Shown here in pieces: positions 1 through 22,957 of a stretch of 37,167 nt of DNA. The notes beneath the pieces were generated by a model. The model was not told the DNA's origin. It saw nothing but the letters and a program-made list of their open reading frames with translations, and searched no databases. This DNA is from a virus: positions 22,483-59,649 of IMG/VR virus record IMGVR_UViG_3300003892_000002; one strand, given 5' to 3'. A program made the position numbers and the translations under genes. Each line of letters starts with the position of its first letter. Position 1 is the stretch's first letter.

Positions 1-123
1 CCTCACCAAGAGGAGTTCGTTAAGTGGGTGTATGATACAATACCTCATAACGATAATTGGAGAGTATGGCTCACCCGTCACTACAAAAATAAACCAGAAG
101 ATTTTACGCCAGAAATTAAATCT
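1..123 (+). repeat. Direct repeat A, copy 1 (coding)
   Basis: About 123 bp that recur 1530 bp later in the same gene. The core encodes NDNWRVWLTRHYKNKPEDF, identical in both copies. A companion module B (589-633, KSEKLTVNKYL) also recurs at 1663-1707 (KSEKMTINRYL). The A-B pair is contiguous at the C-terminus but split at the front by the MGHC and LRV segments. Confidence 0.85.
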
Positions 124-1719
124 ACCATTCAGCACTATGCTGATATGGCAAGAGGAGCTCCAGAGGTTGAAAAGGTACGTTTTGACAAAACTCATGACTT
201 ACATACAGGACTTTCAATGCTTGAGAATGCCGAAAAAGAGTACCAGCAAAAACGATTAGATAAAGAAAGAAAGGTAGTACCTACAGATAAAACTAAAATG
301 TTTAATCCTGCTGCCACTCCAAATAGAGCATGGTTTCACTTAGGAGCTCGTTTTGATGCAGGTGAAAAAAGGGCAATGGGACATTGTGCAAAATGTTCAA
401 ATGATGAAAATGTGGATATTCGCTATCAAATCGCCAAATACCCAGACTTATTCACCAAATTTCCTAATCTAGTTGAAAAATTATTAAATGATGAAAATTT
501 GAATGTACGTCGTAAATTGCAGCAAAATGCTAAAGAACAAGGCATAGACTTAACACAATTTCTACAAAACTTAAAATCCCAAACTCAAAAATCTGAAAAA
601 CTAACCGTCAACAAGTATTTACTACTTAAAAAGGCAGAATACCAATTTTCTAAATTAAGTAAAAATTCTGAAAGTAAAGAGATTGTATATGTTGCCACTG
701 ATGGTGATAACATTGGTGCGTCAGTAGAACGTGCGGCAATGTCAAACGATTTAAGTGCAATTAAAGAAAACGACCGTATTATTAGAATGGGCAATGATAT
801 AATAGTAAATTGGGCTAAAATGCATGAGGGTGTGGTTTACATAAATGGCGGAGATGATGTTAGTTTTTATATGCCTAAAAAATACATAAAAGATTTATTT
901 AAGTTAAAAGATGAATATACTAAAGCGACAAAATTTACCTTAACTATAGGTGTTGGTGATACTATTTCCAATGCGTTACGGGCATTAGTATATGGCAAGT
1001 TAAATGGCAAAAATCAAATTAACATTTATTCACCTGCCATCAAAGAGGCGATAGAAAAATTAAAATCTAAAAAAGACCTATCTCCACAAGAAAAATTACA
1101 ACAAGAAGGGTTATTAAAAGCTTATACTAAGATTTTTAAAACTTATAAAGCTCTACAAGTTGTATCTAATAATTCCACAAATTTAAGAAAAGATTTAATT
1201 AGTTCAATTCCTATATATGCTCCAGTAAAAGAATTGATTACATTAAATGATGCTAATAAATTTTTAAGACCTATAGTAAGCAAAAAACCTATTAACGCTT
1301 CTGATATGCAGTTTGAGACTTATCAATTTGTAGATAGTAAGGGTATTCCTTATTATGTTTTAGTTGTAAAAGGATTAAATGGGTTTATAGGTGATGTATT
1401 TAAATCTGAAGTTAAAACTCAAAATTATATTTTCATTTTAAATGAAAAATTGTTTAATTTATTTAGACCATTTATATTAAAAAAAACCACGAACATTAGA
1501 GAAATGCTCGCAGGTAAAAACCCTCTGCAACCTCACCAAGAGGAATTTGTTAAGTGGGTATATGATACAGTTCCAAACAATGATAATTGGAGAGTATGGC
1601 TCACCCGTCACTACAAAAATAAACCAGAGGATTTCACCCCAGAAATTAAATCCAAAATAAAAAAATCTGAAAAAATGACTATAAATAGGTACTTACGTTT
1701 ATTAAAATACAAATTTTAA
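1..1719 (+). CDS. mCpol-like nucleotidyl polymerase domain fused to LRV cassette (5'-partial)
   Basis: The reading frame is open from base 1, so the true start lies upstream; 572 codons are visible. Order by visible codon: module A at 1-41 (PHQEEFVKWV...), a MGHC motif near 126-129, an LRV-like cassette at about 133-190 (YPDLFTKFPNLVEKLLNDEN) ending in a cap NAKEQGIDLTQFL, then module B. A GGDEF-superfamily palm domain follows at about 229-345. It shows ATDGDNIG (DGD at 234-236), GGDD (283-286), TLTIGVG and a GKN helix motif. This set matches the minimal CRISPR polymerase (mCpol) group, enzymes linked to cyclic (oligo)nucleotide synthesis. An unrecognised domain at about 350-490 and second copies of modules A and B close the protein. 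Both acidic motifs are intact, so catalysis is plausible. The product, and whether this serves attack, counter-defence or the virion, are unknown. The next gene, 20 bp downstream, is a baseplate gene. Confidence 0.7.
   Translation, partial: PHQEEFVKWVYDTIPHNDNWRVWLTRHYKNKPEDFTPEIKSTIQHYADMARGAPEVEKVRFDKTHDLHTGLSMLENAEKEYQQKRLDKERKVVPTDKTKMFNPAATPNRAWFHLGARFDAGEKRAMGHCAKCSNDENVDIRYQIAKYPDLFTKFPNLVEKLLNDENLNVRRKLQQNAKEQGIDLTQFLQNLKSQTQKSEKLTVNKYLLLKKAEYQFSKLSKNSESKEIVYVATDGDNIGASVERAAMSNDLSAIKENDRIIRMGNDIIVNWAKMHEGVVYINGGDDVSFYMPKKYIKDLFKLKDEYTKATKFTLTIGVGDTISNALRALVYGKLNGKNQINIYSPAIKEAIEKLKSKKDLSPQEKLQQEGLLKAYTKIFKTYKALQVVSNNSTNLRKDLISSIPIYAPVKELITLNDANKFLRPIVSKKPINASDMQFETYQFVDSKGIPYYVLVVKGLNGFIGDVFKSEVKTQNYIFILNEKLFNLFRPFILKKTTNIREMLAGKNPLQPHQEEFVKWVYDTVPNNDNWRVWLTRHYKNKPEDFTPEIKSKIKKSEKMTINRYLRLLKYKF
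1531..1653 (+). repeat. Direct repeat A, copy 2 (coding)
   Basis: Second copy of the module at 1-123. The stretch from ATAATTGGAGAGTATGGC to ACAAAAATAAACCAGA is the same in both copies. Most differences are third-position changes, so both copies have been kept under protein-level selection or diverged recently. Confidence 0.85.
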
Positions 1720-1739: not shown

Positions 1740-4700
1740 ATGGCTGATATTCCAAAATTAAGAAGTCGTGAACAAATTATAGGTGATATTGTAGATAGTA
1801 TTTTAGCAAGAGTACCTGAATTAAATGACTTAAATCAGACTTCTGTTTTAAGGCAGTTTATTGAGGCTGTTGCTCAATCACAATTTAAGGCTTATGCTGA
1901 TATTATAAATATGATTGATGCTAACTCAATTGATAGAGCAATTGGGGATGCACTACAAAGAAAAGCAAGAGACGCTAATGTACCAATTTTGCAAGCTTTA
2001 CCTGCAATAAGTAAAGTTAATATAAATGATAAATCTTTTGAAAAAATTTCATCATTTGTCTATTCAGGACAACCTGCACCTGTAGCTGGTTCTCTTACTA
2101 TATACATAGTTGATGGCTCTAAATTTAACCCAACAGGCGGTAAAATTTATATTGGTAGAAATACTCCAAATTTTGAAGGCCCGCTTGATTATATTTCAGT
2201 AACTCCAGAAGCTGGTGGAGCATATTACAAAATCACACTTGCACCTACTTCACCTACTACCAAGTTCCATAACATTGGGGAGTCGGTAGTGCTTGCTCAA
2301 GGTGGCAATAGACTTATCCCAGCAGGTACTCAATTACAAACTGCGCAAGGAGCATCGCTTGCTCCCATTACTTTTAGTACTACTGCAAATGCTACTATAC
2401 CAGATGGAGAAACTACCGTTGAAAACATACCAGTCGTCTGTGAGCAAGTTGGTACTATAGGTAACGTACCAAAAGGTGCTATTAAAGTAGCTATAGGTTT
2501 ACCATTCCCAGCTGATGTTACAAATCCAATACCTGCAAGTTTTGGTCGTGAAGCTGATACTGATGAAGATATTAGAAATCGTATCAAGGCTTATGAGCAA
2601 GCAAAAGCCAAAGGTACTGAATTAGCTATTAAAGTTGCCGCAATAGATGTAATGGCAAGTGATGAAAATAAAAAAGTTCAATCAGCAAATATCTCGCGCT
2701 ATACTGATGGTACTACTGCATTGGTATTTGATGACGGAACAGGCTATGAGGCAAAGTTTGTCGGTGCTCCTTTTGAAACTATTATAGATAAAGCAGTAGG
2801 TGGAGAAAAAGAAATCCAATTAAGAAATTTCCCACTAGCTCAAGCAAGACTAAAATGTGTAAATGTAGGGCCTTACAATTTATCGCAAATAGCTTATTTA
2901 TCAGTAGAAATAAATAATGAAACTACTACCCATCAATTTAATCCTAGTGATTTTAAAGTAGCTTCATCTGCATTGCCATTTGAGGTTATAGCTTCTATTA
3001 ACGCTAATCCAAACATTAACTTTTTAGCTGCAACTGCCGATAACGGTACTAGAATAGTTCTTTTCCCTAAAGATAGATTTGCAAATAGTATTAAGATTAA
3101 AGTACCAACACTAGGTTATGATGCTAATGAAATTTTTGGTTTCCCACAAAATACCGAAACTACCTTAAGACTTTATGTTAATGATAAACCTTTATTACAA
3201 GATGGTAAAGTAGCTAAAGTAACTACTTTATCTAAAGCATTATGGTCTAATACTATTACAAGTGGCGATACACTAAAATATAAAGTAGATGGTACACCAG
3301 AAATTACAGTTACTTTTACCAATGCTGACTTCCAAGTTTTTGATAGCGGTGCGGTAGTAAGTAGCACTCAATCATTAGAGCTTTGGTCTAAAGTATTTGA
3401 ATTTAAAATGTCTGGAGTAAAAGCTAATATAAATGGTGATGTAATTGAGTTTACTTCTACTCGCGGTGCATCAAATCAAGCTTCAATAGAAATAACAGGT
3501 GGTACATTAGTACCTAAGATTTTTGCGGCAAATGCAGTATTATTTAGTCAAGGTATTACAGCTGACTATACTTTAAATAAACAAACAGGCCAATTAGCAT
3601 TAACAAAACCTCTTTCACCAAATGATAAGTTAACAGCAGGAACTCCATTTACTCGTGCTAATATATTAACAGAATCTATACCTTCAGGTATATCTACAAA
3701 TGGTCGGGTATGGATGATTGTAGATGGAGATGTAAAACCTGTACCAAATGGTTTAAAAACAAATACTCAAGTAAAATTTACTAAAACAGGTACTAAACTT
3801 ACTATCACTGCTAATTCTCCATCACTAATACCAGAAGGTTTTGAAGAAGCAAAAGAAGGTGATTGGGTATTAGTATGGGCAGACCCAACAGACCCAGCAC
3901 CTCTAATTTCAAATCAGGGTTATTGGAAGATTGAGTCTGTTCAGCAAGGACAGATTATAGTAGATGACGGCAATACTACTCGTTCTAATTTAAATATCAC
4001 TTTCACACCACTTACTGACCGCATACAAATAGTCAGGTCTAATGCACCTATTCAATTATGGGATTTTAATGCTGGCTCATTAACTTATCTTGTAAATGAT
4101 ATACAAAGTAAAATCTTAGGTATTGATGCTGATATTGTAGGCTCTAAAATTAGAATTACAACTCAAACTTACGATGAATATGGTGAACTTTATATTATAG
4201 CAGCAGATAAAGGTGCAGCAGCCCTTCAGTTACCTATTGGTCAGGTATTTAAAAATGTTTCATCGCATTTTGGTTTTCAGTTAACAGCTGATACGGAAGC
4301 TAATTTCCCAAGCTTTACTCATTCTAGTTTTGGTACAGCTATTAGTGATAGCGTATTTAATGTTCCAGATTATTTAGCTATTGGTGGCAATGAAAGTGAT
4401 TGGATTGAGATTTTAGATAAATACACCACTTCACCTTTAAAAATTTTAAAAGACTCTAATAAAGAAAGACGGGTTTTTGTTAAAGAATTTAATCCTACAA
4501 CTAATGAATTAACATTACTACCACCACGCTATATGAAAGCTGGTGCATCAGTTATTCAAGCAAATGATAGATATTTCTTAAGGTCTTCATTTCAGTTTGA
4601 CCCAAGAGATATTGTATCAATCATAGTGGACTCTGATACTACTACTAAGAATTTTAATGTACCTATTTCACGTAAACTTAAAGTAAATACTCACAGTGCT

Positions 4701-7700
4701 CCAACCAATCAAGATTTTTCAGCTGATGATGCAGAGTCTTCATTGGCACTTAATGACCCAGCTTCATTTAATGGTTTTGATTTTAATAACTTTAAGGTTT
4801 TAAGACAAGCTAGAACAACTCTAACTAATGGCACTTATTCAATTCAATTTAAATCTTACGATTTTGGTAAAAATGGCGAAAAATATAGAGTAGGATTTGT
4901 TTATCCCGATGATATAAACCAAACCACTTTATCACATAGATTTAATGTTAGTGATATAATTGATTTACAACTTATATTGCCAGTAACTAATAGTAGAACT
5001 CCAAATTGGGACCACACTACTTCGTTTACTACCCAAGTTACTACAACACAAGGTAAAGATACTGTTACATTTACTTATAGAGTAGGTACTCAACCTGACT
5101 TTTCAAACACTGGTGCAAATGTCCAAGTAGGTGATATTGTTATAATTAGTAATGGCGCAAACTTTTTACCTAATAATAAAAACATTAGAGGTAAAGTAGT
5201 TGCAGTTACTCCAACATCATTTACCATAGAAATTCCAACTGGCACCGCTATTTCTGATAACATTAGTTTTAGTGATATGATTAACCAAAATGGTACTATT
5301 ACAATTACTACTCCTACTCCTCATAATATAATCAACGGTCAGTTAATTGGTATATGGAATACTTCAAGTCCAGATGGTTTAGTTTATCCATTTAATACTA
5401 TTTATGTCGCAAATGTAATTAGCCCAACTCAATTTAGCGTACAAATGCCTAGTTCTGTACCACATGGCAATATACTTACTGCTACGCATTCTTCAAACAT
5501 TATTACTATTAACACATCTACACCGCACAATTTACAAGCAGAAAATATCATTTTAATTAGTGGTGTAGGTACAGGCTCTTATGATGGTCTTGCACCAGTT
5601 TATAAAGTTATTACTCCTACACAATTCCAAATAATTAAAAATGGCGTATCAGCTCCAATTTCTAATATAGGTAGATTTGATTATCAATCTTTTGGTCCTT
5701 CAACCGTTTCTAATATATCAACTATAACTAAAACAGGTAATTTAGTTACAGTTGTTACTACCACAAACCATAATTTAAGTGCTGGCAATATAATCAAAAT
5801 AGCTAATGTTACTTTAAACGCTTGGAATAATGCCACTACTTACAATCCCGGTGATTTAGTAAGATATAATGGTCAAAATTATATTTCTTTAACTATCAAT
5901 ACTAACTCTCAACCAGATATTAACCCTACTGATTGGTCTGTAACTACTTTAGATTTAGGTGGAATGTTTATTGTAGATAGTGTTATTAACTCAACTACAT
6001 TTACTTACTACTATCAAGAAAGTGGTAACGCAAGTGGTACAGGTGGTACAACCACATTATACAAACCTCAAGGTAGTTTAGCTAGAAGTTTAGCAAATAC
6101 CGCTAACCTTGCATTTGGTTCAGTACAAACTACTGCACAAGAAGTTGTAGATTATGTTACAAACAATCTAAATGATAAATTTATAGCAAAAATTACAAAC
6201 GGCAATACTTCTGCACCAATAACTCAATCTACTGAAGATGAAGGTTTAAGTACGAATTACTTAAGCGGTAACATTTTAGGTTATCAAACTTTTATCAGTA
6301 AACGTTTAATCAAACTTATTTCTGATACTAATGTACCAATAGGTTCTACTATTTATGTCAATGGATTTACTGGTAGTAATAGTGTGTATAATGGTTATTA
6401 TGTAGTACTAGAAAATGAAATAAATGCACCAAATTATTTATTAACTGTTTATTCTAGCAAGCTTGCTAGCCAAACTTCTAATGTAGTTGCATCTGCTACA
6501 TTTACAGGTTCTACTCCTTATCGTAAACTTTACGATGGAGCAAATTCTATTAAAATTACTAACTTAGGTAGCTTAATTGGTTCACCGCAATTTACACTTA
6601 AAAAACCATTTAATGATTCACTGGAAGTTGATGAAAAATTATATTTATTAGCATTAAATTCTGACCAAATAGTAAGATTTTGGAATAGACTAGTAGTTAC
6701 AGGTCTTTCAAATGTTTCTAGGATTACTAATTCTCAATACGGAAGACAAATTCAAATCACTACTAATACTTTTGGAAATGCTGGTTCTATCCAAGTAGCA
6801 GGTGGTACAGCTAATAAATTAAACTTAGCAGTAGTAGGTTCTGCCTTTGAAAAACAAAATAAAATGGGTATTATTAAAGTACCATACGAGTTAAGAAAAG
6901 GTTTAGTAGAAGGTCAATGGCTTAAAGTACAAAATCAATTAAGACAAAATAAACAATTAGGTTTTGACGCTACAACTAGCTTACAAGTTTATAGCGATGG
7001 TATAGGAATTAACGGCGGTTCAGGTACTTTCCAAACCATCAGACCTACTACTCAAGATGCTACTACTCAAATTAAAGTTGAAAGACAAGGTGATTTTGTA
7101 GCCATTATATCCATTGGAGGTAGTTCGTTTAATTTAAGTACCGCACAAGTGCAAGAAGGTGATTGGGTACGAATTAAAAATGTTAAAGAACCAGATTGGC
7201 AAAGCACTGTTACTTATAGCATAGGTGCTAGAGTCCATTTTAATGGGTTAAATTATACATCACTTATAAATGGTAACTTAAATAATCAGCCAGATATTTC
7301 CCCAACTGCTTGGGAAGTACAAGAATTTAATCAAGCAAATCAAGGCATATATCAAGTAGTAAGAGTTTTTGGTGAGGATACCTTTTACATTAAATCAGAC
7401 AATGCAGTAGAAGAGATATTTACATTAGGTAACGGCAATTCTATTAAGTTTTACTCTTATGACTCTGTAATGCCTAATGATACTTTAGTTATTTCAACCA
7501 ATATACTTGGCACTCAAAATGTTGGTCGTTATAAAGTAGTTGATGAATCTTTTGGTACGGGTTATTTCTTCCCAACCGCTACTCGCATTTGGACTACTCC
7601 AATACCTAACCCTCCAGCTTTACCTGTTACACTAGGCGCAGAATACACTCAAGTGAATATAGAAGAAAAAGACCCATTAGTAGTTTATAAGAGAATTTTT

Positions 7701-8267
7701 GCTTTAGGTGCGGCAGATAATGTAACTCAAACTATTATTGTTGATTCGCCAAACTTAGTAAATAGAATTAGCTCATCAGTTGGTTCGTTTATAGAAGCTT
7801 TCGGTAAATTTAATTTTGACACTCAAATTCATTTTGGAGTGGATGCTTATAAGTATTATACAGGACTAACTAGAGAATTAAATAGAGTTATCTATGGCGA
7901 TGCTTCTGATATAATTAACTATCCCGGTGTGCGTGCAGCAGGAACCACCATTGATATTAAACCAGCAATCATAAAACGAATTAAATTAAGCTTAGTCGTA
8001 AGACTTAAAACAGGTCTTCCATTTTCGGAAATACGAGAAAGAGTGAAAGCTTCAGTAGCAGGTTATATCAATAGTTTAGGTGTTGGAGAAAATGTTTCAT
8101 TATCTAAGTGTATTGCAGCTGCAAATTCCATTCCCGGCGTTATAGCTGTAGCTATTACTTACCCACAATTTGATGCAGCAAATGATTTAATTACAGTTTC
8201 TCCAGATGAAAGACCTTTAGTCTTAGACCCAACTACTGATATTACAGTATCGGTTTCTACGAGCTAA
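1740..8267 (+). CDS. Giant baseplate J-like tail protein
   Basis: This 2175-residue protein carries baseplate J hallmarks at both ends. The N-terminus (SREQIIGDIVDSILARVPEL) and FGREADTDEDIRNRIKAYE near residue 270 match the P2 gpJ / T4 gp6-like wedge family. The last 110 residues (IDIKPAIIKRIKLSLVVRL onward, with IPGVIAVAITYP) match the family's C-terminus. Family members are usually a few hundred residues, so the roughly 1700-residue middle is a large insertion. It holds repeated beta modules of the type TPTPHNII...SPTQF (about residues 1180-1360) and two carbohydrate-binding-like modules (about 1359-1403 and 1817-1862). Role: baseplate wedge, possibly with surface-exposed binding decorations. 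It overlaps the convergent dut gene by 11 bp. No Shine-Dalgarno precedes the start. Confidence 0.85.
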   Translation: MADIPKLRSREQIIGDIVDSILARVPELNDLNQTSVLRQFIEAVAQSQFKAYADIINMIDANSIDRAIGDALQRKARDANVPILQALPAISKVNINDKSFEKISSFVYSGQPAPVAGSLTIYIVDGSKFNPTGGKIYIGRNTPNFEGPLDYISVTPEAGGAYYKITLAPTSPTTKFHNIGESVVLAQGGNRLIPAGTQLQTAQGASLAPITFSTTANATIPDGETTVENIPVVCEQVGTIGNVPKGAIKVAIGLPFPADVTNPIPASFGREADTDEDIRNRIKAYEQAKAKGTELAIKVAAIDVMASDENKKVQSANISRYTDGTTALVFDDGTGYEAKFVGAPFETIIDKAVGGEKEIQLRNFPLAQARLKCVNVGPYNLSQIAYLSVEINNETTTHQFNPSDFKVASSALPFEVIASINANPNINFLAATADNGTRIVLFPKDRFANSIKIKVPTLGYDANEIFGFPQNTETTLRLYVNDKPLLQDGKVAKVTTLSKALWSNTITSGDTLKYKVDGTPEITVTFTNADFQVFDSGAVVSSTQSLELWSKVFEFKMSGVKANINGDVIEFTSTRGASNQASIEITGGTLVPKIFAANAVLFSQGITADYTLNKQTGQLALTKPLSPNDKLTAGTPFTRANILTESIPSGISTNGRVWMIVDGDVKPVPNGLKTNTQVKFTKTGTKLTITANSPSLIPEGFEEAKEGDWVLVWADPTDPAPLISNQGYWKIESVQQGQIIVDDGNTTRSNLNITFTPLTDRIQIVRSNAPIQLWDFNAGSLTYLVNDIQSKILGIDADIVGSKIRITTQTYDEYGELYIIAADKGAAALQLPIGQVFKNVSSHFGFQLTADTEANFPSFTHSSFGTAISDSVFNVPDYLAIGGNESDWIEILDKYTTSPLKILKDSNKERRVFVKEFNPTTNELTLLPPRYMKAGASVIQANDRYFLRSSFQFDPRDIVSIIVDSDTTTKNFNVPISRKLKVNTHSAPTNQDFSADDAESSLALNDPASFNGFDFNNFKVLRQARTTLTNGTYSIQFKSYDFGKNGEKYRVGFVYPDDINQTTLSHRFNVSDIIDLQLILPVTNSRTPNWDHTTSFTTQVTTTQGKDTVTFTYRVGTQPDFSNTGANVQVGDIVIISNGANFLPNNKNIRGKVVAVTPTSFTIEIPTGTAISDNISFSDMINQNGTITITTPTPHNIINGQLIGIWNTSSPDGLVYPFNTIYVANVISPTQFSVQMPSSVPHGNILTATHSSNIITINTSTPHNLQAENIILISGVGTGSYDGLAPVYKVITPTQFQIIKNGVSAPISNIGRFDYQSFGPSTVSNISTITKTGNLVTVVTTTNHNLSAGNIIKIANVTLNAWNNATTYNPGDLVRYNGQNYISLTINTNSQPDINPTDWSVTTLDLGGMFIVDSVINSTTFTYYYQESGNASGTGGTTTLYKPQGSLARSLANTANLAFGSVQTTAQEVVDYVTNNLNDKFIAKITNGNTSAPITQSTEDEGLSTNYLSGNILGYQTFISKRLIKLISDTNVPIGSTIYVNGFTGSNSVYNGYYVVLENEINAPNYLLTVYSSKLASQTSNVVASATFTGSTPYRKLYDGANSIKITNLGSLIGSPQFTLKKPFNDSLEVDEKLYLLALNSDQIVRFWNRLVVTGLSNVSRITNSQYGRQIQITTNTFGNAGSIQVAGGTANKLNLAVVGSAFEKQNKMGIIKVPYELRKGLVEGQWLKVQNQLRQNKQLGFDATTSLQVYSDGIGINGGSGTFQTIRPTTQDATTQIKVERQGDFVAIISIGGSSFNLSTAQVQEGDWVRIKNVKEPDWQSTVTYSIGARVHFNGLNYTSLINGNLNNQPDISPTAWEVQEFNQANQGIYQVVRVFGEDTFYIKSDNAVEEIFTLGNGNSIKFYSYDSVMPNDTLVISTNILGTQNVGRYKVVDESFGTGYFFPTATRIWTTPIPNPPALPVTLGAEYTQVNIEEKDPLVVYKRIFALGAADNVTQTIIVDSPNLVNRISSSVGSFIEAFGKFNFDTQIHFGVDAYKYYTGLTRELNRVIYGDASDIINYPGVRAAGTTIDIKPAIIKRIKLSLVVRLKTGLPFSEIRERVKASVAGYINSLGVGENVSLSKCIAAANSIPGVIAVAITYPQFDAANDLITVSPDERPLVLDPTTDITVSVSTS

Positions 8268-9324: not shown

Positions 9325-10110
9325 ATGGATAAATCTACAAAATTACGTAAAAAATTATATTCTTTAGTTAGGAATAAAGACGATACAGTAAGAGTATTAG
9401 CTGCGGTAAATCCGCTATTATTTAAGGTTGCACCAGAATTGGCAGAGAAATTAGCACAAGATGAATCGTTTTTTGTAAGAAAAAACCTTGCCTCTAATAT
9501 ATCTTTGTTTTTAGATGCACCGCATATTGCAAAAGAATTGACAAAAGATAAAGATGTCTATATTAGACTAGTGTTAATTCAGCATCCTCATTTATTTTCA
9601 GCTTTAGAAGTTGTAGAACTTTTAGCTAAAGACCCAGATGAGCTAGTTCGCATCAAAGTAGCTTCACACCCTTCATTGTTTTTAGCTAAAAAGGTTTTTT
9701 ATATGCTTGCAGATGATGAAAATTGGGCTGTACGATGTGCTATTGCAATTCGTGAGGATTTGTATGCTTTAGACACTAATTTAATTAAAAAATTTGCAAC
9801 AGACAAAAATGAAAATGTAAGAGGTAAAATTGCGCTAAGATATAACTTATTTCATACTTATCCTGAGATTTTGAGAAAACTAGCCAAAGATAAATCTCCA
9901 GAGGTCAGAAGTGTAGTAGCTTCTCGTAATGATATTTTTAAGTATTGTCCTGATTTAGTTCAAAAATTTTTAAAAGATAAAAATTTACATGTAAGATTTA
10001 GTCTCACAACTAATGAAAATTTACCTAAAAAAATAGCTTTAAAGCTCCAAGCTGATAAAAACAAGTACATTAGAGCTGCGGCTATAAATGCAATTGAACG
10101 TCAACAATAA
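9325..10110 (+). CDS. LRV/HEAT-like helical repeat protein A
   Basis: This 261-residue protein is almost entirely built of repeats of about 28 residues. The pattern is VR-x3-A-x-(H/N)P-x-LF-x(3-4)-P-x-L-x-EKLA-x-D, for example APELAEKLAQDESFFVRKNL. It resembles the leucine-rich-repeat-variant (LRV) or HEAT-like alpha solenoids, which usually bind proteins or nucleic acids. No catalytic motif is visible. The start has a GGGAGGG site, and a TATAAT box lies at 9302-9307. It is divergent from the DprA/SLOG-like gene and 22 bp upstream of the next LRV start, so the two LRV genes probably form one unit. The function is not known. Confidence 0.75.
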   Translation: MDKSTKLRKKLYSLVRNKDDTVRVLAAVNPLLFKVAPELAEKLAQDESFFVRKNLASNISLFLDAPHIAKELTKDKDVYIRLVLIQHPHLFSALEVVELLAKDPDELVRIKVASHPSLFLAKKVFYMLADDENWAVRCAIAIREDLYALDTNLIKKFATDKNENVRGKIALRYNLFHTYPEILRKLAKDKSPEVRSVVASRNDIFKYCPDLVQKFLKDKNLHVRFSLTTNENLPKKIALKLQADKNKYIRAAAINAIERQQ

Positions 10111-10132: not shown

Positions 10133-11401
10133 ATGAGAAAAGATATAGAGCAATTAGCAAATAGTTCAAATTTAGAAGATAAAATACAAGCTGCAAAACA
10201 CTCAGCTCTTTTTATTGTAGCATCAGATATTGCTGAAAAATTAGTAGATGATGAAAATATTCTATTTGATTGGAAAGAATTTTTAGATAACAAACTAAAA
10301 GTCGTAGTTATATCTGTACCTGATGATATTGATGCTTTTACAATTTTTGAAACATTAAACGATAGAGGTTTAGCATTGGCTCAAATAGATTTACTAAAAA
10401 ATTATCTTTACAGCAAATCTGGACTAAGATTAAATGAGATACAAAATTCATGGATTGAATTAAATTCTAAGTTAGAATCATTTCAAGAAGATATTTTACT
10501 GATATATATAAAACACTGGTGGTTTGCACATAAAGGTTTTGCAAGAGAGAAAAATAATGAATTGTATAAAAAAATTAAAGAAGAAATACAAAATACAACA
10601 GAGGTAGCAAATTTTGTTCTTAATCTTAAAAACGATGTTGAACTATACACAGCCATATTAAACCATAATTTACTGTTTTGGAATGATTATAATAATAAGT
10701 GCAGAAAGTACGTTGAAACTCTTAATTATTTCAATTTGGAACAATATAGACCTTTAGCTCTTTCTATTCTTAAAAAATTTGAAAAAAATGATGTTGAAAA
10801 ATCCTTAAAACTTATTGTCTCGTGGCTAATAAGAAATTTAATTGTAGGAGCAATGGGAGGTGGGACATTGGAACAATTATATGCTAATACAGCTATTGAA
10901 ATTACAAATAATAAGATATGTAATGCACACCAACTTAAAGAATTTTTAAAGAATAATATACCTACTGATGATGAATTTAAAGAAAAATTTAAAACAGCAA
11001 CTGTCAGTAAAGCAAAATATGCAAGGTATTATTTAGCAGAAATAGAAAATTTCCATCGGGGTAAAAACAATCCGGAATTATTAGTAAATCTAAATCCAGA
11101 TTCTGTTAATCTAGAACACATACTCCCTGAAAATCCTTTAAATAATTATCCTAATTTTTCTGATGAGGATCATGCTATGTACTTCAAAAGAATCGGGAAT
11201 CTCACCTTAATAAAAACAAAAGAAAACAATGATTTTAAAAGCTCAAAATTTTCTGATAAAAAAGTTAAATATAAAGAATCTGAATTCTGGTTGACAAAAA
11301 CATTGGCAAATATAGATGAATGGGATATTGATGCAATAAATCAGAGACAATCCGATTTGGCTGAATTAGCAGTTGAAACATGGAGTTTAAAATTTGAATA
11401 A
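10133..11401 (+). pseudogene. Chimera: LRV protein start joined to DUF262/DUF1524 C-terminal half
   Basis: The 422-residue frame is open but is composed of two genes. Residues 1-43 are the start of a phage LRV protein (AEKLVDDENI) with a phage ribosome site AAGGA. From residue 44 it is the C-terminal half of a DUF262-DUF1524 (GmrSD-type) protein. Landmarks are AFTIFETLNDRG near 68-79 and the His-Me-finger-like DUF1524 region: NLEHILPENP with H329, IGNLTLI at 354-360, then N365/N366. The N-terminal half of DUF262 (the DGQQR motif) is missing and lies at 17401-17916 on the other strand. The join falls exactly in a 14-bp inverted repeat. The product probably lacks nucleotide-dependent restriction activity. 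MTase 11405 follows three bases later. Confidence 0.85.
10248..10261. repeat. Inverted repeat, left copy (inversion junction)
   Basis: ATGATGAAAATATT, present in inverse orientation at 17401-17414. In both genes it encodes the same in-phase codons (D-E-N-I). Exchange between the copies would invert 10262-17400 and convert two chimeric genes into two complete ones. Confidence 0.9.
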
Positions 11402-11404
11402 GAT

Positions 11405-12409
11405 ATGATCGAAAAATACACAAATAGAATAATACAGGGAGATTGTTTGGATCTTTTTAAAAAAATTCCTGATAATTCAGTTGACGTAACTTTTGCAGAC
11501 CCCCCTTTTAATTTGAAAAAGAATTATTCGAGTTATAATGATAGATTGGAGTTTCAGGAATACCTTGATTGGTGTGAAAAGTGGATCTCAGAAATGGTTA
11601 GGGTAACAAAACCAACCGGTTCAATTTTTTTACATAATATTCCAAAATGGTTAACGTATTATGCAACTTATTTAAACAAGTTAGCATACTTTAAACATTG
11701 GATATCCTGGGATGCACCAACTGCACCAATGGGGAAATCTCTGCAACCTGCCCACTATGGAATACTTTTCTACACAAAAGAAGCTAAGGGTGCAAAAATT
11801 TATGAATTACGCCATCCTCACAGACGCGATAGACATGGGTATCTTTTAAAAGATTATGGTGGTAAAAAAGATAGTTTACACCCTTTCGGTCCTCTGGTTT
11901 CCGATGTGTGGACAGATATTCACAGAATAAAACATAATAAAAAAAGAGATCCACACCCCTGTCAGTTACCTGTACATTTAATGGATAGGTTAATTCTAAT
12001 GACTACAGATGAAAATGATATTATTCTTGACCCATTTTCTGGAACAGGTACAACTGCTATTTCTGCAAAACGTTTAGGCAGAAGATATATTGGTTTTGAA
12101 ATAGATGAAAAATATATTGAAATCTCTCAAAAAAAACTTGAAAAAATTTTGCCTAATTTTAAATTAGGTGAATCCTGGGTGAGTTTTTATTTGAATGATA
12201 TTGTTACAATCAGAGATAAAGATTGGAATAAGATTGCAAATTATTTCTACATTCCTAATCCAATAAGGTATATTGATTTTGAAAAGACAAAATTAATTGA
12301 TAAAAACTTAATTCCCGATGAATCCCTTTTTGAAATGCATATTGAGTATGATACCAAACAAAAAATAAAAGAAAGAAAATTAAAGTTAAATAAAAATATA
12401 TCATTGTAA
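11405..12409 (+). CDS. DNA amino-methyltransferase (N6-A/N4-C, beta-type order)
   Basis: 334 residues. Catalytic motif IV is ADPPFNL (residues about 31-37) and the S-adenosylmethionine motif I is DPFSGTGTT (about 217-225). Motif IV precedes motif I, the order of beta-class N6-adenine/N4-cytosine enzymes. KPTGSIFLHN and the HPCQLP-x-LMDRLI segment are typical of the family. It transfers a methyl group to an exocyclic amine in a restriction site, which cannot be read from the sequence. It starts three bases after the DUF262/DUF1524 chimera without a Shine-Dalgarno, so translational coupling is likely. In the un-inverted order it ends the operon 18893-20131 MTase, REase, DUF262, this gene. Its 3' end overlaps the convergent REase by 155 bp. 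Confidence 0.9.
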   Translation: MIEKYTNRIIQGDCLDLFKKIPDNSVDVTFADPPFNLKKNYSSYNDRLEFQEYLDWCEKWISEMVRVTKPTGSIFLHNIPKWLTYYATYLNKLAYFKHWISWDAPTAPMGKSLQPAHYGILFYTKEAKGAKIYELRHPHRRDRHGYLLKDYGGKKDSLHPFGPLVSDVWTDIHRIKHNKKRDPHPCQLPVHLMDRLILMTTDENDIILDPFSGTGTTAISAKRLGRRYIGFEIDEKYIEISQKKLEKILPNFKLGESWVSFYLNDIVTIRDKDWNKIANYFYIPNPIRYIDFEKTKLIDKNLIPDESLFEMHIEYDTKQKIKERKLKLNKNISL

Positions 12410-13616
12410 ACTTAGTAGATGAAAAATAATTTTTCAGCAAATCAATCACTTCGCCTTTACTGTTCCCTAACAATTTACGCCTGTCCCAAATAAGTTTTAT
12501 TCCGTTGTAATTGAGATACATTCCGTCTAATAAAAACGCAATAGTAGCAACAACTTTGTTTTCTGAAATTTTACTTTTATATTTTTCCCAAACTGATTGA
12601 AAGTTAATTGTCTCGTTTAGCGTTTTTGCACTTTTCGCAGCTTTAATTAACTCGTCTGCTAACCAACTTGGAACACCTCCGTGATCTTTTTCAATCGCTT
12701 CTTTTAATTTGCTTTGCAGTGTTGTCAAGCTATCCAAATCCTTTTTCAATATTTCATTTCCCCTCGGACGAACCAAAGCGTAAATTCCGAAAATTTTATG
12801 CGTCTTTGAAAACACAAACGAAATGAAGTTTAAAATTCCTCTGTCAGGGTCCATTGCGTGGCTGAAACGATTGATTTTAGCACCAATCCAATCTTTGTTT
12901 ACGAAGAAACGCAATTTGTTTAAGTTCGTTGCTCTACGAGCTTTCCATGTTGCTAATAATTCTTTTGCACCAGTTGCGTTATCAACTTTTTTCCGATAAC
13001 TTTTGTAAGATGATGTTTGCTTTAAATCTTTGATTGAATTTTCAAACCAATTTTTCTCTGACTTCAAAAACGATTTTACAATTGCTTGAATTGTGTTTTT
13101 TAAAATTGGAATTTCGGGAGGACAAGATGGGAAATTTTGATTTCGTTGTAAAGTAAATTTATTGTCTGTTTCTGTTCCCCACTCTGCAATAATGTAGCCC
13201 TCGTAACCAAACTGTTCAATCAAAATTTTAGGAGTTGAATACGGATTGTATTCTGCACCGCCAAAAATCTTTTCACTTTCTTTATATCCTGAAATTTTGA
13301 TGTAAAAAGTGTCGGAAAGATATGCTGCTAACGCACCGTATGTGCGTTGTAATTCGTGGTCTTCTGTTTTTACTGCTTCGGTAAATTCGATAATTGCTAA
13401 TGGATATTCAATGCCGTTTTTTATTCCTGTAATTAAAGCATCTGGAGTAGTGAAAGACATTATCGAAAACAATGCCCCATTTGGAAATTGGTTTGCTTTC
13501 TTTGGTCTTTTCACAAGTTTGATATTTATTCCCTTTGGAGTAACTTCACTTATCATCGGCAGCAAATAATCACTGCCTTGTTCTAAACTCTCATAATAAA
13601 GCCTTATTTCCTGCAT
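12255..13616 (-). CDS. Putative restriction endonuclease, C-terminus probably lost
   Basis: 453 residues as an open frame, with the start codon overlapping the stop of the upstream methyltransferase by one base. Near residues 72-96 it has YPLAIIEFTEAVKTEDHELQR, which resembles a PD-(D/E)xK-like nuclease core. The position behind two methyltransferases supports a restriction enzyme role; I do not recognise the specificity. From about residue 403 onward the frame runs antisense through the 3' end of the convergent methyltransferase. The apparent membrane helix there (LTLIFFLLFFVWY) is therefore most likely an artefact of antisense reading. The native C-terminus was probably replaced at about position 12410, by deletion or recombination. 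Activity is uncertain. Confidence 0.6.
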   Translation of the reverse strand: MQEIRLYYESLEQGSDYLLPMISEVTPKGINIKLVKRPKKANQFPNGALFSIMSFTTPDALITGIKNGIEYPLAIIEFTEAVKTEDHELQRTYGALAAYLSDTFYIKISGYKESEKIFGGAEYNPYSTPKILIEQFGYEGYIIAEWGTETDNKFTLQRNQNFPSCPPEIPILKNTIQAIVKSFLKSEKNWFENSIKDLKQTSSYKSYRKKVDNATGAKELLATWKARRATNLNKLRFFVNKDWIGAKINRFSHAMDPDRGILNFISFVFSKTHKIFGIYALVRPRGNEILKKDLDSLTTLQSKLKEAIEKDHGGVPSWLADELIKAAKSAKTLNETINFQSVWEKYKSKISENKVVATIAFLLDGMYLNYNGIKLIWDRRKLLGNSKGEVIDLLKNYFSSTKFTMIYFYLTLIFFLLFFVWYHTQYAFQKGIHRELSFYQLILSFQNQYTLLD

Positions 13617-14752
13617 TATAATTTTTCTAAAATAATTAAATGTTCTTTCTTACCCTTTTGAGCATAAGAAGGATTGAAAATTTTTGAATGTTTTGATAAA
13701 TCAGAAGACAAAATTTCGTTCACCTTTAATCCGAGTATCGGTGCAAATTCGGATATTTCCTTTTCAATTTTTATCAATTCCTTTTTTATTACGCTGTCGC
13801 CAATTACGATGAATGCAAAATGATTTGGTTTCAAAACTCTTTGCATTTCAGCGAAACACTTAATCAAATCTTCGTTCCATTTTTCTTTTTTTTCTTTCAA
13901 ACTGGAATATTCACGTCTTGAACCAATTTCATTGTATTGAGCAAATTTAACGTCAATATCAAGCCAAAGCATGCGGAATTTGTGATACAAATAATAATCA
14001 TAAGTGTTTGCGTAAGGTGGGGATGTAATAATAATGTCAATGGAATTGTCAGGAATAAAATCTAAATTCCTGCTATCAGCATTGTATATTTGTAATTCTG
14101 TAGTGTTGTGGATATGTTTTGAAAATTCTGCCATTCGGGAATTATACTCTCTTGCTTTTTTGCAAAATGCTTCAAGTGTGTAACCGTTGATAATGTTTTT
14201 CTTAATGGCAGCAAATCGCGTATCGCTTTCTTGATTTGAAACTCTAACTATAATAGATGATAAAACTATTTTTAAAAAATCCCGAATATCATTGTCTTTT
14301 TGTTTTAAGATTTCGTTGAGTAAATAAGTTATTTCTTCAGAAACATTATTTTGGAACCAATGTTCTTGTCCCTCAATTTTTTTAATTATTATTTTTGGTC
14401 TTTTCTCAGATTTCCATTTTGGAATTTCGCTTTCAATGTTGGAAATAAAATTTTCTATAATTGAAAACTGTTGTTCAGTTAGAGGTGTAGATTTTACTTT
14501 TGAAAGCAAAACAGAAAGTCCGTTTACATCAACTCCAATCGCGTTTACCCCAAAAATTCTTGCTTCTACTAATGTGGTCCCCGAACCACAAAAAGGGTCA
14601 AGAACAGTTTGACCTTTAACTGCATAAATTTCTAAAATTTTCTTTGGTAGTTGAGGAGGAAACTTTGCTGGATATGGATGCAAAGAATGAGTTAAATAAG
14701 AAGTATCCTCTCCACTAAAACTAAATTGCATTTCGCTTTTTTGAGTAATCAT
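13616..14752 (-). CDS. DNA methyltransferase (N4-C/N6-A) of RM operon
   Basis: 378 residues. SLHPYPAKFPPQLPKKILE precedes motif I, DPFCGSGTTLVEA (about residues 52-64). Motif IV is TSPPYANTYDYYLYHKFRML (about residues 244-263). SPPY is common in N4-cytosine enzymes, but N6-adenine is also possible. VLKPNHFAFIVIGDS is a usual late motif. The start overlaps the previous gene's stop by four bases (ATGA) and the stop abuts the REase start, so the three minus-strand genes form a tight RM operon. Two methyltransferases next to one endonuclease suggest an asymmetric recognition site with one enzyme per strand; this is inference. Confidence 0.88.
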   Translation of the reverse strand: MITQKSEMQFSFSGEDTSYLTHSLHPYPAKFPPQLPKKILEIYAVKGQTVLDPFCGSGTTLVEARIFGVNAIGVDVNGLSVLLSKVKSTPLTEQQFSIIENFISNIESEIPKWKSEKRPKIIIKKIEGQEHWFQNNVSEEITYLLNEILKQKDNDIRDFLKIVLSSIIVRVSNQESDTRFAAIKKNIINGYTLEAFCKKAREYNSRMAEFSKHIHNTTELQIYNADSRNLDFIPDNSIDIIITSPPYANTYDYYLYHKFRMLWLDIDVKFAQYNEIGSRREYSSLKEKKEKWNEDLIKCFAEMQRVLKPNHFAFIVIGDSVIKKELIKIEKEISEFAPILGLKVNEILSSDLSKHSKIFNPSYAQKGKKEHLIILEKL

Positions 14753-15939
14753 TTTGATTTTGGCTTTCTAAATACAACAATAAATGAACAATTTTGATTC
14801 ACATAAAAAACACTCGGATAACCAAGTAAAAATAATCTACGTTGACCAGTTTGATCCCAAATAATTAAATCATGATATAACCAACCTGCTTCCTGTCCTA
14901 CAGCAGCAAGGTCAGAATGAAAAGGAATGTATGGAATATTATTTTTTGTATCACGATAATCTTTTACCACCCAACAAGAATAACCTCCTGGTTTTGTAAT
15001 TTCAAAATTATCTTTTAGAACAGATTTTATTTCCTTCAAAAAATCTTTGTAAGGCAAATTGCCAAAGTCATTTTCATGTTCACTATATTGTTTAACCGTA
15101 CTGTTGTTTTCGTACTTAATAATAGAAGTTTTATGAACTGTTTCACGGTCTTTCAAAGATTTCTGAATAAAGTCAGCATAAGGTGGTGATGTGACAGTTA
15201 ATTGTATTGTGTCTTTATGGATATGTTTAAGCATATTTCGACAGTCATCATTGATGACTTTGTAATGATAGTTGTTTGCAAACAAGCCTTGTACATCATT
15301 AAGCCACAGTTGTGCAATGTTTGCAAATTTTGTATTAAGTTCGATTCCAATGGCATGTCTGTTTAGTCCATGTGCAGCAATAATTGTAGAACCAATTCCT
15401 AAGAACGGGTCAAATACCGTATCACCTTCGGCAGAATACATCTTAATAAGGCGCTCCACGAGTTTTACAGGATAAACAGCTCCGTGTTCAAGTTGATATT
15501 TGTTACGAGGTGAAGATAAATCGTTCCAAACAGGATTTAATATATCGTCCTCATTTATTACATTTTTTGAAAGCAAAGCCCATTCAGTAGGTGTCAAGTT
15601 GTTGAACCCAAGTTTTGATTTCTTTTCTTCTTTTTCAATTTCACGTTTTACTAAATAAGAACTTTCTGCTTCAGAAACGATATTTGATTTATGTTCTTCT
15701 TTTATTTTTTCAAAGAAACTGTCCCACACATCGTTTTTAATAATTCGTCTTACACCACCAATTTTAACTGATGGTATAACTTCTTTTGAAATGTATCGTT
15801 TAACTGTAACTTCCGAAACTTTAAGTAATTCTGCTGCTTCTTTTATTGTTAAAAACTCTTCTTTGTGTTCTGCAATTTTTGCCCGTATAAACCAATCTTT
15901 GAATTTTTGTTTAAGTGTTTGTACGATTTTAATAAACAT
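14749..15939 (-). CDS. HTH-fused DNA methyltransferase
   Basis: 396 residues. At residues about 29-68 there is an excisionase/MerR-type helix-turn-helix (LTIKEAAELLKVSEVTVKRY, then a wing RRIIKND). A methyltransferase domain follows, with motif I DPFLGIGSTIIAAH (about 177-190) and motif IV TSPPYADFIQ (about 239-248). G-I-G-S-T is a mild variant of the usual G-S-G-T-T. The fusion suggests the enzyme may also bind a promoter and regulate its own operon, as controller proteins do in some RM systems; this is inference. The ATG at 15939 has a strong AAAGGAGG site. First gene of the three-gene operon ending with the REase. Confidence 0.85.
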   Translation of the reverse strand: MFIKIVQTLKQKFKDWFIRAKIAEHKEEFLTIKEAAELLKVSEVTVKRYISKEVIPSVKIGGVRRIIKNDVWDSFFEKIKEEHKSNIVSEAESSYLVKREIEKEEKKSKLGFNNLTPTEWALLSKNVINEDDILNPVWNDLSSPRNKYQLEHGAVYPVKLVERLIKMYSAEGDTVFDPFLGIGSTIIAAHGLNRHAIGIELNTKFANIAQLWLNDVQGLFANNYHYKVINDDCRNMLKHIHKDTIQLTVTSPPYADFIQKSLKDRETVHKTSIIKYENNSTVKQYSEHENDFGNLPYKDFLKEIKSVLKDNFEITKPGGYSCWVVKDYRDTKNNIPYIPFHSDLAAVGQEAGWLYHDLIIWDQTGQRRLFLLGYPSVFYVNQNCSFIVVFRKPKSK

Positions 15940-16010
15940 AATATCCTCCTTTCTTATTTTTGTTTATTATAATTTTATATTAACACATTTACTAAATAAT
16001 ACAACATTTT

Positions 16011-16235
16011 TTAAGCGTACATTATAAGCATTGGCTTACCTAATGCACGCATCAATCGTTTAAATTGAATTGTATTATATCCAAAACCCGTTTCTAACTC
16101 TTGTTCCTCTTCCTCATCAGGTAATACACATTGATATTTGCACTTAGGTTGGTCAACAGAGGTCTCTTTACGAATAATAACATCTTGAATATCAATTTGA
16201 TGACTAGCTAATAAAATTAACATTATTCTAAACAT
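16011..16235 (-). CDS. Small phage protein, unknown
   Basis: 74 residues, with an acidic patch (PDEEEEQELE) in the middle and no recognised family. It has a good ribosome site (AAAGGAG) and the promoter-like element P2 upstream. It follows the LRV array on the same strand and precedes the HTH-methyltransferase. It is probably the last phage gene before the RM island begins, placing that boundary between about 15940 and 16010. Confidence 0.6.
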   Translation of the reverse strand: MFRIMLILLASHQIDIQDVIIRKETSVDQPKCKYQCVLPDEEEEQELETGFGYNTIQFKRLMRALGKPMLIMYA

Positions 16236-16252
16236 AAACTACTCCTTTCTTT

Positions 16253-16285
16253 TTATATCATCTCATAATCTAAATATATTGTCAA
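16253..16285 (-). promoter_or_regulatory. Candidate accessory promoter P2
   Basis: On the minus strand TTGACA (16285-16280), 12 bases, TATGAGA (16267-16261), three bases, TATAA (16257-16253). The layout is the same as P1 at 34666. It overlaps the end of the LRV array and reads towards the 74-residue gene and, beyond it, the RM operon. Confidence 0.55.
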
Positions 16286-17400
16286 GAAGTTTTAAAGTAT
16301 TGGGTTAAAAATTCTTTTAAATCGATACCTTGCTTATGGGCATTTTTTTCTAATGCCTTACAAACAAATGAATTTTTGTCATTAGCTAATTTTTCTACAA
16401 GATGTGGGGCTTGGGTAAATAAATCTGGATGCAAGGCGATTTGTAAACGAACACCCCAATATTCATCATTAGCAAATTTTTCTACGAGATGTGGAAATTT
16501 CGTGAACAGCTCTGAATATTCTGCTATTTTAGCACGAGCATAGATGTTTTCATCATTCGCTAATTTTTCAACTAAGTGAGGGAATTGAGTGAATAAAGCT
16601 GGATGTGCAACAATTTGTTCATGAACAAGCCAATCTTCATCACTTGCTAATTTTTCTACAAGATGAGGAGCTTTATTGAATAAATCTGGATGTGCAGCGA
16701 CTAAAGCTCGAATATCTCTATCTTCATCATCGGCTAATTTTTCTGCAATATAAAGAAAATGAAATAAATCTGGATGTTTAGCGATTAAAGCTCGAACATC
16801 TCTATCTTCATCATTTGCTAATTTTTCAACAATCTGAGGAAGATGAAATAAGTCTGGATGTTTAGCGATTTTTCTACGAATGTACTTACTTTTATCATTT
16901 GCTAGTTTTTCTGCAAGATACGGAGCTTCGGTAAATAAATGTGGATGTTTGGCAATGTCAGAACGAATAAGCCAATCTTCATCATCGGCTAATTTTTCTG
17001 CAATATAAAGAAAATGAAATAAATCTGGATGTTTGGCAATGTCAGAACGAATAAGCCAATCTTCATCATTTGCTAATTTTTCAACAATCTGAGGAAGATG
17101 AAATAAGTCTGGATGTTTAGCGATTTTTTCCTTAAAGAAACTAGAACGATTTATAAGTTTTTCTATAAAAATCGATGGCAATTTGGTAATTAAATCTGGG
17201 TGAGTTAACAATGCCTCGAGCGTTTCGTAGTCATAACTCTCAGCTAACTTTTCAGCAAAATACAAAGTATGGTTAAATAAATCTGGACGTTCTGCAAGTG
17301 TTTTATGTATAAAATCTTCATCACGATTTAATAATTTTTCTACAATATGTGGTGCTTGTGCAAATAAATCTGGATGAGTGGCTATTGCAAAACGAACACT
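16282..17400 (-). repeat. Tandem LRV-encoding repeat array
   Basis: About thirteen coding repeats of around 28 codons (IAKHPDLF...EKLANDED..-.R). A three-unit block of 255 bp (85 codons) is duplicated nearly unchanged: the copy of ATCATCGGCTAATTTTTCTG at 16726 returns at 16981, with long identical stretches after each. Such near-identity at DNA level means recent duplication or gene conversion, so the repeat number may vary between relatives. Confidence 0.85.
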
Positions 17401-17414
17401 AATATTTTCATCAT
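17401..17414. repeat. Inverted repeat, right copy (inversion junction)
   Basis: AATATTTTCATCAT, the exact reverse complement of 10248-10261. Minus-strand reading passes from DUF262 (KLKSYNNDENI) into LRV repeat (SVRFAIATHPDLF) at this site. Confidence 0.9.
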
Positions 17415-18892
17415 TATTATATGATTTTAATTTATTTTCCAAATAGCATTTTATACTATCATATGCTTGTATTATTTTCTTGTTTGAAATTGTTTTAGGT
17501 TCTGAACTTGCATTTCGATTAATAACTGTTTCTCTAAAAAAAACATTGTCTTGTTCATTTAATTCTAACTTAGGAATATTTTCTTTATTTCTAAAATCAT
17601 AAGAACTCAGATACATATCTTGAATTTTGTTAGCTTCATCGGATCTTTTAAGTAAATCTCTTATTGCAGATATTATTAAAAAAACTGTAGTAATTCTTTG
17701 TTGACCATCAACAATTTCATTAAAACCTGTTTTTTCAGTAAGAACAATTGTGCCTAAAAAATATTCACTTTCATTAAAATTTGATTGAATGTCATCCAGC
17801 AAATCATTCACATGTTGTTCTTCCCATGAATATGCTCTTTGGTAAGTAGGTACTTTTAATTTTTTATTTTTAATTAATTCACCAATTCCTATAAATTCAT
17901 ATTTTATTCTACTCATAATTTTAAATTTTAATTTCAATAAGCTTTCAAACCTTCTTAATTCATCTTTATGAAAAGTAAAAACATCATCATAAGCAACTAC
18001 CATTCTTTTTAAATCACCTTTTCTTACATACCAACCTATACCGTCAACGAATCCGATGAATACAGCATTGGGGTAGTGCTCACGAATTAATGCATTGATA
18101 GAAATTTCTGTTTTAGATTTATCGCCTTGTCCCGAAGAAGTTGTTGCCAGAAACGAGCATTCAGCAATGATTAATGGAGTTTGTTTGTTGGGGATAATAA
18201 AATCCATTGTACGTTTGTTGTCAGGGGCATTAGTAATAAGTTCACTTAAATCGCCTTTTTCAAAAGGAATACCAAATTTATCAAGTATTTCAGCAATTAC
18301 TGTTTCCGGATTGTTTTCTTTCATACCGGAATAACTGCCTTTTTCCTTATACCGGACAAGCGTATCAATTAATTCGGGTATCTCGAACTTCAATTTAGAA
18401 ATACTAAGTTTTTTTAACTCAAATAGTGGAATTGTATTAGCTAAAAAAGGTATTGATGCCCCTTCAAAAAAAATATTTACAAGACCTTTTCTGAAATATT
18501 CATTATTTCGAATAAGCTTTAATATTGTACTATCAGACCACTCCTGAATGTTATCAGGATTTCTATCACTGCACCATTTTTCTTTGTAGGTAAGTTTATT
18601 AAGTTCGGAGTCGTCAACAATACGAATTATTGTTATTAATCTTTTTAAATATTCATTTGAGAATCCGGTTAAAGCCAATAATGCTCTTAGTCCGTTCTCC
18701 TTTTCAGTAAGCAGCCATTCGAAGATTTCTTTCTTTAAACCTTCTGTTTCGATTCTATTTTTAACGATTAAAAGAGTTTCTTTAAGTGAATTGATATATC
18801 CTTCATAGTTTTCTTCAAACTTTGAGTTGAAGAAATAAAATGTGTTTTTCTGAATTACAGTTAAAAATTTTTCGTCAATGCTTTTTGTCATA

Positions 18893-20131: not shown

Positions 20132-20357
20132 GTTTACAGCAAAAATATTTAAAAAAAGTGTTTTAAAAAAGATATACCTAAAATCCGCAAGTAAAATAAA
20201 AAAAAATTATTAGAGCATAAAAGTTCCGTTTTAAAATATTTTTGATGAGAAAACAAGGATTTTGTGTCATTTTTTGGCATTTTAAGACACACTGCCCCTT
20301 ACCCCACTTTCCTTTGGGCTATTGTGGGGAGAGCCCATAAACCCATAAATCCATCTC

Positions 20358-21638: not shown

Positions 21639-21665
21639 GCACCTAAATAGGTGAAAAAAAATAAA

Positions 21666-21694
21666 CCCTCCAATCTTTCGGAGGGCTTTTTTTT
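21666..21694 (+). terminator. Bidirectional intrinsic terminator in the IS1380 end
   Basis: Stem CCCTCC (21666-21671) with GGAGGG (21680-21685), an 8-base loop, then CTTTTTTTT on the plus strand. The minus strand also has a T-rich run after the stem. It lies between the right terminal repeat and the transposase start, where it would limit read-through into the transposase. Confidence 0.75.
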
Positions 21695-21736
21695 AACTGT
21701 GTTTTCAACAATCTAATTTAATTCCACTTGCGGATT

Positions 21737-22933: not shown

Positions 22934-22937
22934 TTTT

Positions 22938-22957
22938 GAGTCACTTTTCAGTGACTC
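22938..22957. other. Hairpin just before the rve transposase start
   Basis: GAGTCAC (22938-22944), a six-base loop, GTGACTC (22951-22957). On the minus-strand message it stands four bases upstream of the ATG at 22933. No ribosome site is visible. It may limit translation from read-through RNA, or be an end of the element. Confidence 0.5.

Follow-up and report, generated by a model that had tools for sequence, protein, structure and literature searches.

A phage-encoded OptS-type mCpol palm domain in a virion-gene cluster, with relatives in a fixed slot beside the tail genes

The closest described relative of the domain reported here is OptS of the Panoptes system, in which a stand-alone OptS gene of ~125 aa forms a two-gene operon with OptE. 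The product of OptS silences OptE, and phage sponges that remove this product trigger membrane disruption (PMC12657218, PMC12657230). In KpOptS the metals are bound by Asp6 and Asp57, and complete activity depends critically on both residues (PMC12657218). Outside the present case, mCpol domains are known from defence (PMC12657218, PMC12657230), and no report of a phage-encoded mCpol was found in the open-access PMC literature.

A study by Iyer et al. 2017 (PMC5512222) described GGDEF cyclases and 2H domains in polyvalent proteins encoded near virion genes. The authors inferred delivery of these proteins with the DNA and proposed that the GGDEF domains interfere with nucleotide signals of the host. 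The term ‘mCpol’ is absent from the main text of that study. Phage GGDEF proteins, such as those of Bacillus phage SP-15 and phage G (Gp350), obtained as BFVD matches, belong to the same palm superfamily as the domain studied here. Their annotation is GGDEF cyclase, a family distinct from the OptS-type mCpol, and no virion-slot series is shown for them here.

The window, the whole stretch of 37,167 nucleotides that was analysed, corresponds to G000:C1:22483-59649 of a 61,666-base virus record (IMGVR_UViG_3300003892_000002). It opens within the mCpol gene, and the features of this gene and of its downstream neighbour are as follows.

1..1719, + strand: 3′ portion of the mCpol gene (572 codons), an open, 5′-truncated ORF.
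1..129, + strand: 5′ copy of a module (PHQEEFVKWVYDTIP...), part of a flanking duplication.
430..546, + strand: about one HEAT/LRV-like repeat (IAKYPDLFTKFPNLVEKL...), from repeat analysis.
688..1029, + strand: mCpol palm domain, residues 230-343, from Pfam PF18182, NCBIfam NF033576, PDB, AF2 and Foldseek.
700..717, + strand: DGDNIG motif, residues 234-239; D234 lines up with Asp6, a catalytic residue of KpOptS.
847..858, + strand: GGDD motif, residues 283-286; D285 aligns with catalytic Asp57 of KpOptS.
1066..1503, + strand: C-terminal domain without an assigned type, modelled at low confidence, 29% identity with lineage L029.
1531..1659, + strand: 3′ copy of the PHQEEFVKWVYDTIP... module, identical to the 5′ copy at 40 of 43 residues.
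1740..8267, + strand: giant baseplate J-like protein, directly downstream (Pfam Baseplate_J 4.3e-10, phrog_6 4.3e-28).

The domain at residues 230-343 is a true mCpol palm of the OptS type. This identity had been proposed by the initial annotation from the motifs, and Pfam, NCBIfam, the PDB sequence search, AlphaFold and Foldseek agree on it. Pfam PF18182 matches with E=2.3e-15 and 57.4 bits (cut-off 26.4), and NCBIfam NF033576 with 40.2 bits against a cut-off of 40. OptS is the sole credible PDB sequence match of the window domain, and the OptS structures are the only PDB hits when the whole phage family is used as a profile (E=2.4e-15). The AF2 model of the palm has a pLDDT of 91-98 across most of the core. 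Its best Foldseek match is Panoptes OptS 9mnr_A (target TM 0.87, rmsd 1.7 Å), which confirms the expected palm fold. GGDEF, GTP cyclohydrolase III and Csm1 are among the further matches, with GGDEF ranked below OptS.

Both acidic motifs are intact, as had been noted. TLTIGVG, then NGKN, follow downstream of DGDNIG and GGDD in the order expected. The window palm and OptS (KpOptS, PDB 9mnr, 9nwn and 9pd0; PMC12657218, PMC12657230) have in common the domain family, the fold, both catalytic Asp residues and a DGDxxG ... GVG ... GKN layout. The mCpol domain probably retains nucleotide-cyclising activity. The base-recognition residues S30 and N34 of OptS are replaced by D258 and R262 at the matching window positions, and the window product may therefore differ from the OptS product or not form.

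Other assignments of the domain were rejected. A chance motif is excluded by the E-values. A GGDEF diguanylate cyclase was set aside, as no GGDEF occurs among the Pfam matches up to E=1 and the OptS structures rank higher. For Cas10/Csm1, the Cas10-Cmr2 palm2 profile reached 20.6 against 27 bits, and no cas genes were recognised among the neighbours.

The true start of the gene lies upstream of the window, because the window begins at a 2-N scaffold gap, where ORF 1-1719 also begins. Upstream of the gap, reading of the letters gives MQKNKVFTIYHYLRKYAWSL...NIREMLAG. The same start is present in a twin record, IMGVR_UViG_3300002920_000015 (L024), which is 99.85% identical over 8.6 kb and supplies the whole gene.

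L024:6336-8861: complete, ungapped mCpol gene of the twin record, 841 aa.

The complete gene starts with MQKNKVFTIYHYL and is placed as in the window, between the baseplate protein and the giant J-like protein. Its longer N-terminal region has a relative in Salicola phage SCTP-2 gp31; a PcfJ-like identity of this region, considered at first, was dropped as it has no Pfam support. The flanking modules had been described as duplicated, and the duplication itself is real. However, the twin ORF terminates ahead of the 3′ copy, where one extra base at window position ~1486 puts the copy out of frame. Because this insertion ends the ORF earlier, the 3′ copy does not belong stably to the protein. In the AlphaFold model of the window protein the palm alone is confident and the C-terminal domain is not.

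The protein had also been credited with an LRV cassette. A HEAT/LRV-like repeat is present, but only about one clear repeat lies in the window ORF, compared with five in the twin and 11 in a paralogous gene at the start of the record (L021:1-2172). In view of the scaffold gap, the window version of this stretch may result from the way repeats were assembled. Among the mCpol proteins scanned from other phages, none had HEAT/LRV repeats that Pfam recognised. The LRV part is left out of the mechanism considered below because the repeat number varies between the near-identical twins and none was recognised in these other proteins. Its proposed role as a sensor or docking arm is weakened on the same grounds, and by the presence of repeats on unrelated proteins. 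Further HEAT/LRV-like repeats were seen at window 9325-10110, 10133-10260 and 16282-17500, and at L021:1-2172 and L021:4459-5931. They recur on several unrelated proteins of the window phage, in numbers that differ between the twins, and are apparently shuffling cassettes.

The neighbours of the window gene encode gp25-like and baseplate J proteins, and the baseplate context first noted is upheld. The J-like protein (1740-8267) has 2175 aa and two CBM_5_12 carbohydrate-binding stretches. Unlike OptS, the window palm is phage-encoded, lies in a virion-gene cluster, is fused in a larger protein (572+ to 841 aa) and has no OptE-like neighbour. No 2TM-beta, CARF, SAVED or HEPN-like neighbour was recognised near the gene. 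A Panoptes locus carried on the phage was rejected, as no effector partner was recognised. The bacterial mCpols compared are ~125-aa genes with a small neighbour, and no such partner adjoins the window gene. Two plasmid mCpol genes (L065:4995-5977 and L066:3992-5181) are each followed by an overlapping hypothetical gene. The mCpol of a Sulfitobacter plasmid lies near genes for a DncV-like CD-NTase and for ThiF-family proteins, in agreement with the link between Panoptes and CBASS described in the literature.

Further along the window, an island at 10262-23413 contains, by eye, several DNA methyltransferases and two transposases; a transposase examined for this purpose gave no hint of the host. 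Halves of a DUF262/GmrSD-like gene lie on opposite strands at 10133-11401 and 16282-18906. The island is mostly missing from the near-identical twin, where a 100-aa HEAT gene stands instead (L077:17822-18124). A piece matching 15865-16482 and an 83-base LRV piece are left in the twin in the other orientation. Either the island was gained recently and inverted by way of HEAT/LRV repeats, or it reflects mis-assembly.

Phage relatives were sought by scanning IMG/VR repeatedly with growing alignments, and near-identical contigs were merged into lineages. Phage homologues do exist: about 20 lineages with the palm were recovered, with one profile-recognisable palm per record searched. Most of the relatives’ contigs are fragments, so gene absence cannot be called. 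In searches of annotated phages, Myxococcus phage Mx1 was the sole credible relative. Scans of bacterial and archaeal genomes gave no relatives, although these relied on short peptide patterns and are no proof of absence, and a plasmid search provided two bacterial mCpols for comparison. The tree separates the phage palms from the bacterial mCpols with modest support (90/83), and its three bacterial rows are too few to read an origin of the phage palms from it. In the contigs examined, the palm genes lie among virion genes.

In most of the relatives the palm gene stands in one fixed slot beside the tail genes: in L027, L030, L031, L032, L034, L036, L054, L056, L058, L059, L061, L076 and Mx1, and also in the partial contigs L040, L060 and L064. 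The slot palm gene is the nearest upstream neighbour of a neck gene of the phrog_16819 family, small ORFs aside. After the neck gene come a tail-terminator-like gene (name assigned here), other small genes and the tail sheath. A phrog_1004-type head protein is encoded a few genes upstream of the palm where contigs extend that far. The slot of the window phage itself is out of view, as both records end inside the repeat-rich gene adjoining the neck gene. The window phage belongs to a phage family, apparently undescribed, with a palm in one such slot, and no description of the slot series or of a dead/intact pairing in one phage was found in the literature compared.

The slot palms differ in their catalytic residues. 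DGD and GGDE are kept in L027 and L076, whereas the slot palms of 11 lineages have NGD and [SA]GDE, a change of D6 to N, and still have GDxxG. The Mx1 slot palm (WNM70340.1) scores below the Pfam cut-off and, unlike the intact palms, has lost both catalytic motifs; it is annotated merely as a hypothetical protein. Its slot neighbours are the same (phrog_1004-type head gene, neck gene and sheath), and it has the common C-terminal helix region. Mx1 is a cultured isolate, so its slot gene can be tested now. Two further slot genes are degenerate.

L044:1634-2887: degenerate slot palm, no catalytic motif.
L070:1501-2781: degenerate slot palm, the L045 ortholog, no catalytic motif.

In a profile comparison, the L044/L045 slot genes matched the palm family over the N-terminal 100 residues (E=8.4e-8, probability 94%), and they have a C-terminal stretch in common with the Mx1 palm gene. 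The palm fold can persist without the known catalytic residues, because slot relatives carry D6N or have lost both motifs. The initial annotation had regarded homologues lacking both acidic motifs as counter-evidence. Such homologues occur among the degenerate slot members, but not in the clade of the window gene.

The window gene, L044, L045 and L041 form one clade (clade I; tree support 99/99), to which the partial L029 probably belongs. DGDNIGASVER, an invariant block of 11 residues, and GGDD are present in all members covering the motifs (n=4), with both catalytic Asp residues invariant. None of the genes of this clade occupies the slot: the window gene is in the baseplate region, and those of L044, L045, L041 and L029 stand between neck or terminator-like genes and the sheath. 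L044 and L045 each carry a degenerate slot palm plus an intact palm elsewhere. The dN/dS of the intact domain between L044 and L045 is 0.046, an approximate value as dS is 1.48 and near saturation; that of the sheath is 0.096. The intact clade is under strong purifying selection. Retention of the catalytic residues under such constraint, beside relatives without them, argues that the window’s clade was kept for its chemistry.

The intact palms are found in varied fusions. The L045 protein has GNAT fused in two stretches, the L044 protein a weak SAM-lyase-like match, and the L041 mCpol is part of a long multi-domain protein. A separate DGD line is represented by one ORF.

L075:6747-9506: 919-aa ORF with NUDIX, mCpol (DGDNIG, GGDE) and a weak SAM-lyase-like domain.

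Polyvalent proteins likewise fuse unrelated domains, enzymes included (PMC5512222), as the palm family does with GNAT, NUDIX and, in the twin, HEAT repeats. They are also encoded among late virion genes. The virion cluster and the fusion to other enzyme domains are the grounds for matching the window protein to this class.

Homology, fold, catalytic residues, selection and context are shown. The reading favoured here is that of a polyvalent protein, made late and probably carried in the virion, with an mCpol that would make a cyclic dinucleotide interfering with nucleotide-signalled defence of the host. This reading is put forward tentatively, as quite possible but short of probable. The protein would be made with the virion and probably packaged into the particle. 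On entry, the mCpol would make an OptS-like cyclic dinucleotide from host NTPs, and this product could occupy the host receptors of nucleotide-signalled defence. Panoptes would be the clearest case, with the phage-made substitute keeping OptE silent after sponges have removed the OptS product. As the OptS product silences OptE and its removal triggers disruption, a delivered mCpol could protect the phage from such guards. Against this stands the timing: without packaging, a protein expressed from a late cluster would arrive after the point at which defence can be blocked. Of the roles first suggested, a decoy or competing signal may apply. Use of the domain in the particle is strengthened by the fixed place of the slot among virion genes and by the degenerate slot members, with packaging itself a putative step. 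A more specific version is considered rather unlikely. Here, an OptS of the phage's own would travel in or with the particle, and during infection a substitute cyclic dinucleotide would hold Panoptes-type guards off or occupy CBASS-type receptors. The ancestral state in the slot would be a delivered cyclase, reduced to a structural part on repeated occasions, with intact copies moved into other fusions.

Chief among the rivals is a palm with a role in structure or assembly, which would make protein contacts in the head-neck-tail region with catalysis incidental, as in the slot members. The fixed slot between the phrog_1004 head protein and the phrog_16819 neck gene and sheath, in about a dozen lineages and Mx1, speaks for such a role, as do slot genes that are kept in spite of D6N in most members and loss of the motifs in Mx1, L044 and L045. 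The account is credible for the slot members and less so for the window’s clade, which lies outside the slot and has the catalytic blocks as its most invariant part. The intact palms of L044 and L045 are also not needed in this role, as both phages have a separate slot palm. For the window gene it is unlikely, though a serious contender. A palm that binds NTPs or cyclic dinucleotides, to sequester or sense them without turnover, would suit the slot members that have GDxxG and [SA]GDE but no D6. It leaves unexplained the full retention of both catalytic Asp residues under low dN/dS in clade I, and is improbable.

A different palm chemistry, such as nucleic-acid end synthesis, NTP hydrolysis or protein nucleotidylation, would fit the base-recognition positions unlike those of OptS and a chemically diverse superfamily. 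In structure, OptS is nevertheless the nearest match, and the family profile hits no other PDB sequence, which makes a reaction other than cyclic dinucleotide synthesis quite improbable. Phage-borne defence against other phages is very improbable. In this form of superinfection immunity, the mCpol product would control a phage effector as in Panoptes, in keeping with the other known mCpol domains (PMC12657218, PMC12657230) and with the nearby island, where DNA methyltransferases and a DUF262-like gene were seen by eye. The neighbourhood lacks a recognised effector of the types listed above, the gene sits within a virion cluster, and the twin without the island still has the mCpol gene.

The known means by which phages counter nucleotide-signalled immunity act by removing or absorbing its signal, which is exactly what Panoptes punishes. 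If the delivered-cyclase reading is true, a phage-made mCpol product would be the opposite strategy, provided by an anti-guard enzyme instead of a sponge or phosphodiesterase, and would complete the logic of the arms race. The natural series from intact through D6N to fully degenerate palms offers a setting for asking how such an enzyme turns from signalling to a place in the virion.

Weak, below-cut-off similarity to the S-AdoMet lyase family recurs in virion clusters (L044:7521-7991 and L025:11635-13314) and is once fused to mCpol. In L029:2-715, the end of the mCpol is joined to a domain that contains HHISL and LPHVTV, motifs that resemble 2H phosphoesterase by eye. This domain has no Pfam or PDB match and a poor fold model, and HHISL and LPHVTV are absent in the window copy. 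If it is a 2H phosphoesterase, a cyclase and a cyclic-nucleotide hydrolase would be combined in one phage protein.
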